From Marine Group II euryarchaeote MED-G34 (GTDB lineage: Archaea > Thermoplasmatota > Poseidoniia > Poseidoniales > Thalassarchaeaceae): a DNA stretch of 36,660 bases. Positions 18,004 through 23,168 of the stretch are shown here, one piece after another. The notes beneath the pieces are model-generated. The model saw nothing but the letters and a program-made list of their open reading frames with translations. It did no database searches and had not been told where the DNA came from. Numbering within the stretch: the stretch's first letter is position 1; every line of letters starts with the position of its first letter. The stretch spans positions 1-36,660 of the forward strand of contig NTJT01000011.1 in assembly GCA_002457605.1 (NCBI GenBank). Reading direction: 5' to 3'. A program made the position numbers and the translations under genes.

Positions 18004-18768
18004 ATGGCCGAGGGTTCAGCCGATGTACTACCCCGTGCCGCCGTTCGCGGACTCATCGAGCATATGGCTAGAAGGTTGTATCTGCTCGTGGCAGTATTCG
18101 TAATCGGCCTCATCGGCGGATACCCTGCCGCTGGTGATGCCATAGAGTGGCTCCTACAGGCCGATGGTTACCGTCCCGATGGTGTGCAGGTAATCATTTT
18201 ACAGCCGATGGAGGTTGTACTATTGAGACTCAGGATTGCAACAAATCTCGGTATCGCACTTGTGGTTCTAGTGGTTCTCTGCGACATGGGCTATAACGGT
18301 CGCAAAATCCTATCCGATGCCTACCGCAGGAAGTTCGTTCCTATGGGAGGGGGGCTCGTTGCTCTGCTCTTTGTTCTTGTTTGCGCTCTTGGCCTCGGTG
18401 CAGGAGGAGGAATGTATGCGCATGAGATACTGGTACCGATGCTTCTTGAGTATCTGTCCGAGGACGCTGCTGCTGCGGGGCTTGAATCAACCTGGCAGCT
18501 ACAATCGTGGATTGGATTCATTGTTGGCTTGTACTTCGCATCCGTAGTCGGCTTCCAAGTGCCACTGGCAGTACTCCTAATGCTTCGATATGATGTGATT
18601 GAACGCTCGAGTATCACTGATAATAGGGAGATTCTATGGTTCTCAGCACTGCTCTTAGGAGCATTACTATCTCCTCCAGACCCGCTTTCACTCTTCCTCG
18701 TCGGCGGCCCTATGCTGATCCTCCTAGAGGTTGCTCTGATAATCGATCGACTGACTAATCGAGGCTGA
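18004..18768 (+). CDS. tatC: Sec-independent protein translocase TatC-like
   Basis: Multi-TM protein, N-terminal GLIEHMARRLYLLV, C-terminal LLGALLSPPDPLSLFLVGGPMLILLEVALII typical of TatC. Confidence 0.82.
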   Translation: MAEGSADVLPRAAVRGLIEHMARRLYLLVAVFVIGLIGGYPAAGDAIEWLLQADGYRPDGVQVIILQPMEVVLLRLRIATNLGIALVVLVVLCDMGYNGRKILSDAYRRKFVPMGGGLVALLFVLVCALGLGAGGGMYAHEILVPMLLEYLSEDAAAAGLESTWQLQSWIGFIVGLYFASVVGFQVPLAVLLMLRYDVIERSSITDNREILWFSALLLGALLSPPDPLSLFLVGGPMLILLEVALIIDRLTNRG

Positions 18769-20689
18769 TACCACGGTTGCGGGCGTCTTCGGCCCGAGCA
18801 TCTTCTCTGCCAGCTTCTAAGTCAACCATCCTCATCATGAGTGCCCCAATCAGAATCAGTAATGATATACTGAATACTCCAACTCTGCTATCATACATGA
18901 CTGTGAGAGTACCATAAAGAAGAGGTCCAATCATCGCTGCAACCTTACCGAAGAATCCGAAGAATCCGAAGAATTCAGCGCTCCTCGTCTCTGGTACCAT
19001 CTGGCCGAACATACTCCTAGAGAGACCTTGTGAACCTCCCAGAAGGGTCCCCATTCCGCAACCGAGAATAAGGAACTGCAGGCCTACTGAGAGTCCCAAT
19101 GGCGCCCATACTTTGTCCCTAACTACTATAGGAATTCCATCCAGTGGGCCATCTCCAAGATTTGTAGGGTGGTCGACACCTACTGCATTGGATGAGTCAA
19201 GTGGCCCCCCTTGTACACTAGCACTGAACCTAGTATCATCTACTGAAACTAGGAAGTCCTGGATAAGAGATTGGTTTTCTGCCTTTACCGTGTAGGGATC
19301 ATCGGCTGAGTTACCCCACGACCACTTGTAGATTCCACTATGTTCGCCAATAGTTACGGGTAATATGCTCGAGTGTGTCTGAGCCCATTCTTGCTCGTTG
19401 AATTCATCTTCGGAAAAATCGGTCTTCTGGGCTATCTGATAGTCAAAGTTGTAATTCATGTATGAAACATAAGAGCCAGCCGTGCTCAATCTCTCTTGGA
19501 GCCAACTCTGAGGAAGTTCAGATGGGCTGTCCATGTAATCAAGAGGGTCTGTTCCAGCCTCAATTTCTTCTAGATTACTGAACCAATCTCCGTCCACGTC
19601 GTCATCATAAGAATCGGCGATGCCATCGCCGTCTGAATCCCACTCAAACAGAACATCGTGTTGATCGTGGGAGTCAAAAGATAGAGGTGCGAACGCACAT
19701 GCGGCAAAGCATAGGACTACCCATCCGACTAAAGAAGCGTTCAGAGCCTTTTTTGTTCCCCATTTATTTGCCAGTCTGGTGAATCCAAGCGCGCTTGGCC
19801 ATGCTACGAATTGTATGGCTAGAATGGTTATCATTAGCTCCGTGGTTGTAACTCCCAATACAGTGGAGCCGAATACACCACCCATTGCTGTAACAGTGTT
19901 AATCCCATCTATGAAGAAGAAAAAGGCTAGCATGTAGATGAAAAGTGTGCGGAACTTGCTTACTTCTTTGAGAGTCTGGACTACCTGCCTGTAAGCATCT
20001 CCCAAAGCAATGGCTTCTTCCTCTGCTTCCAGAGGTGGCTCGGGTACGTACTTGAAGGTCAATAGCGCGAATCCATACCACCAAATTCCAGCAGATGCTA
20101 GACAAAGACGAATGACGAAGTCACCACCAATCCCCAAGACAAGGATGAAGTGTACCAGAAGAAGAATGCCCCCTCCAAGGTACCCATATGCGAAAGCACG
20201 ATTGGAAATGTCGTCCATCTCATCATCGGTACCCATGTGAGGTAGCATGGCGTTGTAGAACACACCAGCTCCATTCAGACCTATGTTAGCAAGAACGAAG
20301 AAGACCATTAGCCAAATCCATTCAGATCCCCCATAAAGGAAGTCAAATCCGATAAGGAAAGTTGCGCCTGCTCCGATATAGGTCAAATATCTGAGCCACT
20401 TCATTTTGATCGGTTTTTTATCTGCCATTACACCAAAAGCTGGAGCTAGAATAGCCACCAATAGGGTGGCAGCAGCCACAGCATAAGCCCAGACAGCATC
20501 TCCCGTCAACTGAATAGACCCAATAGTGGTGGTAAGTCCGTTAGCCTCTAGGAACAGATATGCATACCAAGCAGGCAGTATTGCTACTGTGACGCTGGTC
20601 TCAAAAGCCGACTTTCCCCAATCATAGAATGCGTACCCTTTGACTGCTTGTGGGTCCGACGCGCGGTCCAATTCTACTGTCTCTGACAT
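18755..20689 (-). CDS. MFS transporter (Atg22/UMF22-like) with EF-hand/thrombospondin-3-like extracytoplasmic insertion
   Basis: YAFYDWGKSAFETSVTVAILPAWYAYLF N-terminus, about 12 TM segments, inserted DSDGDGIADSYDDDVDGDWFSNLEEIEAGTDPLDYMDSP; ORF extends to 20791 but an ATG at 20687-20689 fits the family start. Confidence 0.85.
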   Translation of the reverse strand: MSETVELDRASDPQAVKGYAFYDWGKSAFETSVTVAILPAWYAYLFLEANGLTTTIGSIQLTGDAVWAYAVAAATLLVAILAPAFGVMADKKPIKMKWLRYLTYIGAGATFLIGFDFLYGGSEWIWLMVFFVLANIGLNGAGVFYNAMLPHMGTDDEMDDISNRAFAYGYLGGGILLLVHFILVLGIGGDFVIRLCLASAGIWWYGFALLTFKYVPEPPLEAEEEAIALGDAYRQVVQTLKEVSKFRTLFIYMLAFFFFIDGINTVTAMGGVFGSTVLGVTTTELMITILAIQFVAWPSALGFTRLANKWGTKKALNASLVGWVVLCFAACAFAPLSFDSHDQHDVLFEWDSDGDGIADSYDDDVDGDWFSNLEEIEAGTDPLDYMDSPSELPQSWLQERLSTAGSYVSYMNYNFDYQIAQKTDFSEDEFNEQEWAQTHSSILPVTIGEHSGIYKWSWGNSADDPYTVKAENQSLIQDFLVSVDDTRFSASVQGGPLDSSNAVGVDHPTNLGDGPLDGIPIVVRDKVWAPLGLSVGLQFLILGCGMGTLLGGSQGLSRSMFGQMVPETRSAEFFGFFGFFGKVAAMIGPLLYGTLTVMYDSRVGVFSISLLILIGALMMRMVDLEAGREDARAEDARNRGISLD

Positions 20690-20795
20690 GGTAATACCTA
20701 CGCGGCGGTGAGGGAACAAGGGTTTGAGCATTGGGGAGGCATCGAAGGAAACCAGTCCGTGCATTCTTGGGCCTATTGCCCTTCGAATCATCCAG

Positions 20796-21914
20796 ATGAG
20801 TTGGGAGCAGCCACCTGAGAACTCCCTAGAGTCCTTGGTCCATGGGATGCAAACATCTGATGGAGTTGAGTTTGATCTGCGACTGTCTGCCGATGATGAA
20901 CTGGTTGTTTATCACGATACGCAGACCGCCGACGGACGCTATCCTGAGTGTGAAGAAGCATCATCAATGCCTGATTACGTATGCAACTTAGATGATCTTC
21001 TAGCCGAGCCTAGATTCGTAGAACCTTGGGTGAATGAGGGGAAGTTTGCGTGTATCGAACTCAAGATACCTCACCCCAGTAGTGGAAAAGTGGGGGGGAT
21101 GTTCTCAGGAGAAATGAAAATCGACCACATGAGGAGAATGATAGAGATTGTCGACGAGTCGATTCTTCCCCTGGAACTCAGTTCTTCTGGGGCAGTGGTC
21201 TATTCATTCGAGCCTCGACTGCTCAAAGCCGCTGCTAGGACCAGCAGCAAACTTCGATTCGCCAGACTGGTGCCATATCTCAGGCCGTGGGGGAGTAGTT
21301 TTGTCAAGAGAGTATTTGCCTCTCCCTATTTCATCGGACTCTCGTTGCCCCGATTAATGGCAATGCAGCGGAGAGCCGGTGCGCCGATGCTGCCTGCAGC
21401 TCTGGATTATCTGGACGGTAGCAAGCGCCACCTAACGATAGGCACTACTGTAGGTCTGCACGGCCGCCAACTTACCAATCTAACAAGAAAACGGAAGGGT
21501 TTCCCTGTCTATGTCTGGCCGGCTAAACTGCGTGTGGAAAGAGCAATTCTAGATGCCGGACTAACGGCGATATCCGACGAGCTCTCTCCGGATGTCACAA
21601 CACTTCCGACGGGTGAGCCACGATGGTTGAGGCCTGCTACCCAACCCCTAAACGACGAGATGAGAGAAGATTTGGATTCGACTCCCATAGGTGGACATGC
21701 AGACGCAATTCGACAACTCCAGAGGGAAGTTGCACCATGGTCAGAGATCTCAGATACCGAGAGAAGAGTTTTCATCGAGGGCTGGAGAAAGAAGTGGCTC
21801 TGGGAGAGGAGTGTTGATGTCCTAATGTCTGAGGCGTCAGAGACCAGTATGCCCTGGGAAGCCTCAAGGGTGATTGGGCACAGAGGCGCTGGCAAGACCT
21901 ATGGGTCTGGCTAA
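20796..21914 (+). CDS. glycerophosphodiester phosphodiesterase-family protein with permuted motif order
   Basis: N-terminal PPENSLESLVHGM, DGVEFDLRLSADDELVVYHD, ACIELKI, YVWPAKLRVERAILDAGLTAISDELSPD; HRG motif only at the C-terminus (VIGHRGAGKTYGSG*). ORF extends up to 20724. Confidence 0.82.
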   Translation: MSWEQPPENSLESLVHGMQTSDGVEFDLRLSADDELVVYHDTQTADGRYPECEEASSMPDYVCNLDDLLAEPRFVEPWVNEGKFACIELKIPHPSSGKVGGMFSGEMKIDHMRRMIEIVDESILPLELSSSGAVVYSFEPRLLKAAARTSSKLRFARLVPYLRPWGSSFVKRVFASPYFIGLSLPRLMAMQRRAGAPMLPAALDYLDGSKRHLTIGTTVGLHGRQLTNLTRKRKGFPVYVWPAKLRVERAILDAGLTAISDELSPDVTTLPTGEPRWLRPATQPLNDEMREDLDSTPIGGHADAIRQLQREVAPWSEISDTERRVFIEGWRKKWLWERSVDVLMSEASETSMPWEASRVIGHRGAGKTYGSG

Positions 21915-23084
21915 TCACTCAAGTCGCTGGTGCGGCTGGTCGCGTGGGATGTATTTGGGCCTGTAAATCGGTGTGCCCCTGCCTTCACGTGCACTGCGCT
22001 CGTCCAGTATCTGTGCACAAATCCCGGCAACACGGGCCCAACCGAAGAAGGTCGTGTAATAGTCCGGCTTACGGAAGCCAACCGAGTGTAGCAGACTGCC
22101 ACTGGCCAAATCCACATTTGGATACGGATTACTAATCTTCGGAATCTCCTTGAGGATTGGTGGAACGACCTCTCGCAGGGTAGTGACTGTCCTGAAATTC
22201 TCGTCATCCGGACATATCTCACTACCAAGTTCGATAAGTAATCTCGCGCGTGGGTCTTCAGCACGGAGAACGCCATGGCCGAATCCGTAGATAGGTCGCC
22301 TCGCGGCCAGTTCGGAGCGGACGAAAGTCTCGATCTCGTCGCGATCCGATGACCCAATCCTCTGCACGAACTCCAAGCAGGCCTGATTGGCGCGGCCGTG
22401 CAGGGGGCCCGACAGTGCATTCATCGCGCTGGCAATCGATGCGTAGATTGATGCGCGTCCAGAAGCAACTGCTTTGCCAGAGAATGTCGAGAGGTTTCCA
22501 CCTCCGTGGTCCATGTGCAGGATGAAGAAGAATCGTAGCATGCGCTCCATGCGTTCGGCCTCTTCGCCTTTGACTCCGAGCATGTGGACGAAGTTTTCGA
22601 CCAGTCCGAGTTCGGGCTTGCGAGGCATTAGGTTCTCCGGTTTTCCGCCACGAAGCAGGAATAGTCTAGCCATCAGTTCGGGCATTCTAGCGATGAGATT
22701 CATCGAGTCAGCGCGAGCATCGCCCGTTGAGTCTGCCGCCCCTAGTGCCATGATACCGATAGCCAGCCAGTCCATCGGATGGCCACTCCCTGGAGTCAGA
22801 GACTCCAGTACTCGGAGCGCCCCAGTGGGTATTTCCTCGGCCCTGTGTGCAAGTTCAGCGTGGAAGGCCTCGGATTCCTCAGGACTAGGGAGGCGCTTGT
22901 GCATCAGAAGGTAAATTACGTCCTCTTCTTCGAGATTGGCTAGGTCGCCTACTGGATAGCCGACGTAGTGGACTCCCTCTATGGGGTCGACAAAAGAGGT
23001 CTTACAGGTGCCCACTGGTACTCCCCTGAGGCCTGAGTCGAGATTGGCTTCGGTGATTGTGAATATTGTCTCCTCGTCACCCAT
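21915..23084 (-). CDS. gltA: citrate synthase
   Basis: HMDHGGGNLSTFSGKAVAS, SAMNALSGPLHGRANQACLEF, GFGHGVLRAEDPRARLL, C-terminal ILDERSAREGRGTPIYRPKYIP; start at M6 of the ORF (ORF to 23099). Confidence 0.94.
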   Translation of the reverse strand: MGDEETIFTITEANLDSGLRGVPVGTCKTSFVDPIEGVHYVGYPVGDLANLEEEDVIYLLMHKRLPSPEESEAFHAELAHRAEEIPTGALRVLESLTPGSGHPMDWLAIGIMALGAADSTGDARADSMNLIARMPELMARLFLLRGGKPENLMPRKPELGLVENFVHMLGVKGEEAERMERMLRFFFILHMDHGGGNLSTFSGKAVASGRASIYASIASAMNALSGPLHGRANQACLEFVQRIGSSDRDEIETFVRSELAARRPIYGFGHGVLRAEDPRARLLIELGSEICPDDENFRTVTTLREVVPPILKEIPKISNPYPNVDLASGSLLHSVGFRKPDYYTTFFGWARVAGICAQILDERSAREGRGTPIYRPKYIPRDQPHQRLE

Positions 23085-23168
23085 GTTATCCCTCAGCAAC
23101 CAACGTATAGAGGGTCACATGATAACTCCTCCGACATTGAAATCAGCAAAGCCTGAGGACTCACAAGA

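Follow-up and report, generated by a model that had tools for sequence, protein, structure and literature searches.

The window, i.e. the complete stretch of 36,660 nucleotides analysed here, carries a gene whose product combines the motifs of a glycerophosphodiester phosphodiesterase (GDPD) in rotated order. The gene is flanked by a divergent transporter gene and a convergent citrate synthase gene. The following features were assigned, with residue numbers referring to the encoded protein and counts to the loci or orthologous sequences compared:

18755..20791, minus strand: ATG22/MFS transporter, divergent neighbour; retained beside most of the genes in the window's family
20796..21914, plus strand: permuted GDPD, whole gene, 372 aa plus stop; position of the start codon common to the orthologues
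20814..20855, plus strand: PEN[ST] motif and helix α1, residues 7-20, right at the N-terminus (in canonical GDPDs after the HRG strand)
20862..20885, plus strand: strand β2 (from the model), DGVEFDLR, with metal ligands E25 and D27 (both 80/80)
20910..20918, plus strand: YHD, second catalytic histidine H40 in the GDPD insert (80/80)
21045..21065, plus strand: strand β3 (from the model), IELK, with metal ligand E88 and K90 (both 80/80)
21192..21401, plus strand: strands β4 (133-137), β5 (155-157) and β6 (199-202), by DSSP on the model
21507..21575, plus strand: strands β7 (238-243, PVYVWP) and β8 (257-260, AISD), from the model, at the canonical VWTVN and TD positions
21585..21851, plus strand: linker of variable length from β8 to the displaced β1, with helices 287-346
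21852..21911, plus strand: displaced β1 PWEASRVIGHRGAGKTYGSG, strand 359-362, with catalytic H362 and R363 (80/80)
21915..23099, minus strand: citrate synthase, convergent neighbour; present in 79 of 80 loci and nearly always adjacent

The reading frame opens with ATG at 20796 and closes with TAA at 21912-21914. The protein begins with MSWEQPPENSLESL and ends with SMPWEASRVIGHRGAGKTYGSG. PENS (residues 7-10), DGVEFDLR (22-29), YHD (39-41), IELK (87-90) and YVW (239-241) follow each other along the chain, and the sole HRG occupies residues 362-364, eight residues before the end; the chance expectation of an HRG from the composition of the protein is 0.05. The open reading frame, motifs and coordinates of the original prediction, according to which the protein opens at PENS and has the HRG strand last, were reproduced. 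The same applies to its statement that none of the three forward frames upstream of PENS encodes an HRG, as no HR[GAL] was found in these frames over about 500 bases of the window. The linker is helical as predicted (287-346), while its proposed length of about 75 aa had to be corrected to 98 residues, counted from the end of β8 (260) to the start of the C-terminal strand (359). The TTG at 20724, where the listed open reading frame starts, was rejected as spurious, since in the orthologues a W.QP.EN[ST] motif follows immediately upon a start codon. In many of them the open frame upstream of the PEN motif is short and extends barely beyond it, and such frames starting just before the motif rule out a longer N-terminus hiding β1.

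A first search of relatives detected the permuted protein in 57 of 60 genomes. Using a profile built from 19 orthologues (A1), the family was found in 279 of 294 sampled genomes of the Poseidoniales (Marine Group II) and in 22 of 22 genera; a few low-scoring matches among these are probably due to a canonical paralogue. Of the 35 genomes that were ≥ 90% complete and ≤ 5% contaminated, 34 contained the family. A scan of GTDB genomes yielded 282 relatives, 80 of which were examined as loci. These 80 belong to marine archaea with Poseidoniales-type or generic archaeal names, many being named Poseidoniales, Poseidoniaceae, Thalassarchaeaceae or Marine Group II. In all 79 intact loci, that is those with the N-terminal motif present, HRGxG occurs at the C-terminus only and is followed by a stop within 60 residues, and in none of the 79 does an HRG precede the N-terminal motif. 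Ten divergent genomes read by hand showed a GHRGxG end in nine cases and an N-terminal HRG in none. The check for orthologues with an N-terminal HRG, proposed along with the original prediction, hence gave none in either set. The canonical order HRG-PEN-ExD-HD-ExK is not followed, HRG being last in each intact locus, and the protein is therefore a permuted variant and not a canonical member of the GDPDs.

The tenth of the divergent genomes (G018) carries an orthologue (L155, G018:C3) with a stop ahead of the HRG strand, probably owing to a local sequencing error or a broken copy; the stop falls within the longer match that the first relatives search had given. In genus g8 of the window's family, the permuted gene is not strongly matched in two genomes, G019 and G352. 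In its place G019 carries a canonical GDPD (about 335 aa), while another genome of the genus, G029, contains a canonical as well as a permuted protein.

Between pairs of the 80 sequences the median identity is 41%. H362, R363, G364 and G366 are invariant (80/80), as are E25, D27, H40, E88 and K90, which correspond to the canonical metal and catalytic positions. All catalytic and metal residues of a GDPD (His and Arg of HRG, ExD, His of HD, ExK) are accordingly present in every sequence, and the C-terminal HRG, whose conservation had been named as a check, is conserved throughout. At the positions of H362 and R363 both His codons and all six Arg codons are in use; judged from the 80 sequences, the C-terminal strand is demonstrably under selection at the protein level. 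The roles of the two histidines and of the metal are taken from LpgD, in which His93 is the equivalent of H40 (PMC10404611). The two chain ends flank one canonical loop, with 4-15 aa after HRG and 4-12 aa before N[ST]. Among the 80 sequences the length of the linker ranges over more than 20 residues. It comprises about 71-74 aa in some genera (HRG counted from residue 263) and is shorter still in others, where the helical part is nearly gone and the final strand is kept. With an effective number of 36 among these 80 sequences, mutual information was uninformative on coevolution of the C-terminal strand with the barrel. The protein resembles canonical GDPDs only weakly in sequence, mostly within the first 70 residues, which would suit a degenerate GDPD-like scaffold that kept the barrel and lost glycerophosphodiester cleavage. 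Such a loss is very unlikely, however, given that every canonical metal and catalytic position has stayed invariant in 80 of 80 sequences as diverged as these.

The AlphaFold2 model of the window protein has a mean pLDDT of 91.7 and a pTM of 0.90. It starts with helix α1 (11-20), followed by strands at residues 23-30, 84-89, 133-137, 155-157, 199-202, 238-243 and 257-260; from these seven barrel strands the chain runs through the linker helices (287-346) to the strand at 359-362. A short extra strand (36-38) lies inside the GDPD insert. The same topology, with the last strand at 338-340, was predicted by AlphaFold from an alignment of 40 for a divergent orthologue whose linker is shorter (pLDDT 94.0, pTM 0.92). 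For both models, GDPDs make up nearly all of the top PDB fold matches, with target-normalised Foldseek TM-scores of about 0.4-0.7 from a sequential aligner that cannot include the moved strand. Both predicted structures have the (β/α)8 barrel with an insert after β2 that is expected of a GDPD. Whether β1 is filled by N-terminal residues was likewise checked: the models start at α1, and the eighth strand is the C-terminal HRG. We infer from the models that this strand would close the barrel between β8 and β2, a placement based on strand count, DSSP, pLDDT and pTM and not on coordinate contacts. Displaced terminal strands can swap, and this one is carried on a linker of widely varying length between genera; it might complete the barrel of another molecule, giving a domain-swapped dimer or ring. 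Nevertheless, in both models a single chain closes upon itself, at high confidence, and the short linkers of some genera leave less room for an exchange, which makes strand swapping very improbable.

GDPDs are distributed over most forms of life, and what usually identifies them is the His-Arg strand with which the domain begins. In native order, the Pfam GDPD profile (PF03009) matched the window protein with about 31 bits (30.8-31.0; cut-off 23.6), covering the first motif block only (38 residues, from profile position 9); all 19 aligned orthologues matched it at E ≤ 0.1. This fragment-only annotation is explained by the rotated motif order, and such proteins may be rated as truncated. For five orthologues the C-terminal piece was put first and the rotated sequence was rescored. 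The scores increased from 31.0 to 37.1, 42.1 to 45.5, 39.4 to 48.7, 38.6 to 43.8 and 31.4 to 35.0 bits, a gain of 3.4-9.3 bits, and all five matches now began at profile position 1. On some of the phylum's canonical GDPDs, the native-order family profile gave two aligned pieces in swapped order, e.g. profile positions 361-375 on residues 29-43 and then 5-46 on 45-87 of L043; the swapped second-piece matches are weak if taken alone (about 1 bit or less). The rotated profile aligned with 4oec from near its first position through HRG, and its best stretches on 2otd and 3no3 likewise start near the first position. The circular permutation that had been postulated is thus supported both by the better fit of the rotated sequence to the GDPD profile and by the swapped pieces in canonical GDPDs.

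Neither a duplication intermediate, among the genomes searched, nor a clear canonical sister sequence was found, as might be expected if the C-terminal HRG had arisen by convergence on a GDPD lacking the N-terminal strand and were not the permuted ancestral strand. We give convergence hardly any weight, since the segment matches canonical β1 beyond HRG (R.IGHRGxG) with the Pfam profile in register. Misassembly, a frameshift or a wrong gene call that moved the HRG might be feared in a draft genome of 66% completeness and 31 contigs but is refuted by the identical motif order of 79/79 intact loci from independent assemblies in 22/22 genera and has a negligible probability.

Very probably, the gene encodes an active GDPD whose barrel is circularly permuted at the β1-α1 loop. 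Our confidence is high for the permutation and moderate for the enzymatic activity, which is deduced from sequence. The chain would start at α1 and continue from β2 to β8 in ordinary order; the variable linker would pass over the exterior of the barrel, and the chain end would insert β1 (IGHRGxGK) between β8 and β2. H362 and R363 would thereby come to lie beside the metal ligands E25, D27 and E88, opposite H40. Catalysis is expected to be of the two-histidine, metal-dependent type via a cyclic phosphate, resulting in hydrolysis of cytosolic glycerophosphodiesters. The enzyme is probably cytosolic, because a chain starting at α1 leaves no room for a signal sequence, and as a best guess from sequence its substrates may be headgroup diesters from own or imported lipids. 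Conceivably, though this is unlikely, the active site forms only upon docking of the free C-terminal strand, and activity would then be switched by docking and release or by subunit swapping. If true, this would be a kind of regulation that a canonical GDPD cannot have.

Most likely, the protein is a cytosolic active GDPD whose permutation arose on the Poseidoniales stem. The GDPD matches listed outside the Poseidoniales in the phylum, those of the sister lineage included, start at profile position 1 and hence have canonical order. The A1 profile scored 281-583 bits in Poseidoniales versus at most about 33 bits elsewhere in a 118-genome sample of the phylum, there over its first 81 positions only, and no permuted relative outside the Poseidoniales was found in this sample. 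Because of this gap in scores, we infer that the permutation would have occurred on the Poseidoniales stem or before a transfer into the Poseidoniales. Duplication, fusion and truncation, or another rearrangement, are its likely origin by analogy; permutation by duplication has been proposed for GH70 (PMC4919382). Canonical GDPDs, both those of the class's sister lineage (L142-L147) and those of other families of the phylum, share the barrel, HRG, HD and E.K with the permuted protein but have normal motif order and no linker, and in the compared genomes they do not adjoin citrate synthase. No direct canonical 'before' gene was identified in the sister lineage: in the compared genomes its GDPD gene does not share a contig with citrate synthase, and outside the order the best profile scores reach only about 35 bits.

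A second GDPD-like protein of 194-236 aa occurs in several genomes of the window's family (L150-L153; G190:C19, G022:C8, G018:C26 and G241:C15). These proteins have canonical order (HRLGASG..ENT, EFDIRES, HDD, V.VEIK) and a conserved tail ending in PKW.FG, and their Pfam match stops at about profile position 140, as though they comprised only half a barrel.

Members of PF03009 such as GlpQ and UgpQ, with solved structures 2pz0, 4oec, 1v8e and 8ghh (LpgD), have HRG, PEN[ST], ExD, HD, ELK, W and D in common with the permuted protein, and the predicted barrel is alike. The latter differs in its C-terminal HRG/β1, in the extra linker and in its start at α1. Permuted TIM barrels are already known: the GH70 glucansucrases are a natural circular permutation of the catalytic (β/α)8 barrel of GH13 α-amylases (PMC4919382). 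GH70 enzymes start at α3 and have the barrel among other domains, whereas here a single small domain is cut in the β1-α1 loop by the active site. In circularly permuted NlpC/P60 enzymes (LRAT-like, YaeF/YiiX) a catalytic residue was moved from the N- to the C-terminal end (PMC3142127), the same shift as described here but in a papain-like fold with unrelated chemistry. The original prediction knew of no described permuted GDPD, and our literature search, the coverage of which leaves out most subscription journals, found no description either. A structure-based screen listed 137,020 AlphaFold domains with a permuted partner (PMC12667903), and a GDPD pair could sit unnamed in these data.

The order-wide lineage shows that the first strand of the barrel can change place together with its catalytic pair while every conserved active-site residue is retained, and the rotated order has been maintained across 22 genera. 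It offers a clean natural case for the origin and folding of permuted enzymes, with the differing linkers as ready-made variants.

In the window, the stop ends of the permuted GDPD and citrate synthase genes abut (21914/21915), and the convergent pair is found order-wide. The ATG22/MFS transporter is absent beside most permuted GDPD genes of the other family. Its adjacency in the window's family would fit substrate uptake or product export, which is only a lead. Between its membrane segments the transporter (18755-20791, minus strand) contains an acidic, calcium-binding-like insert, DSDGDGIADSYDDDVDGDWFSNLEEIEAGTDPLD, which resembles thrombospondin type 3 repeats.
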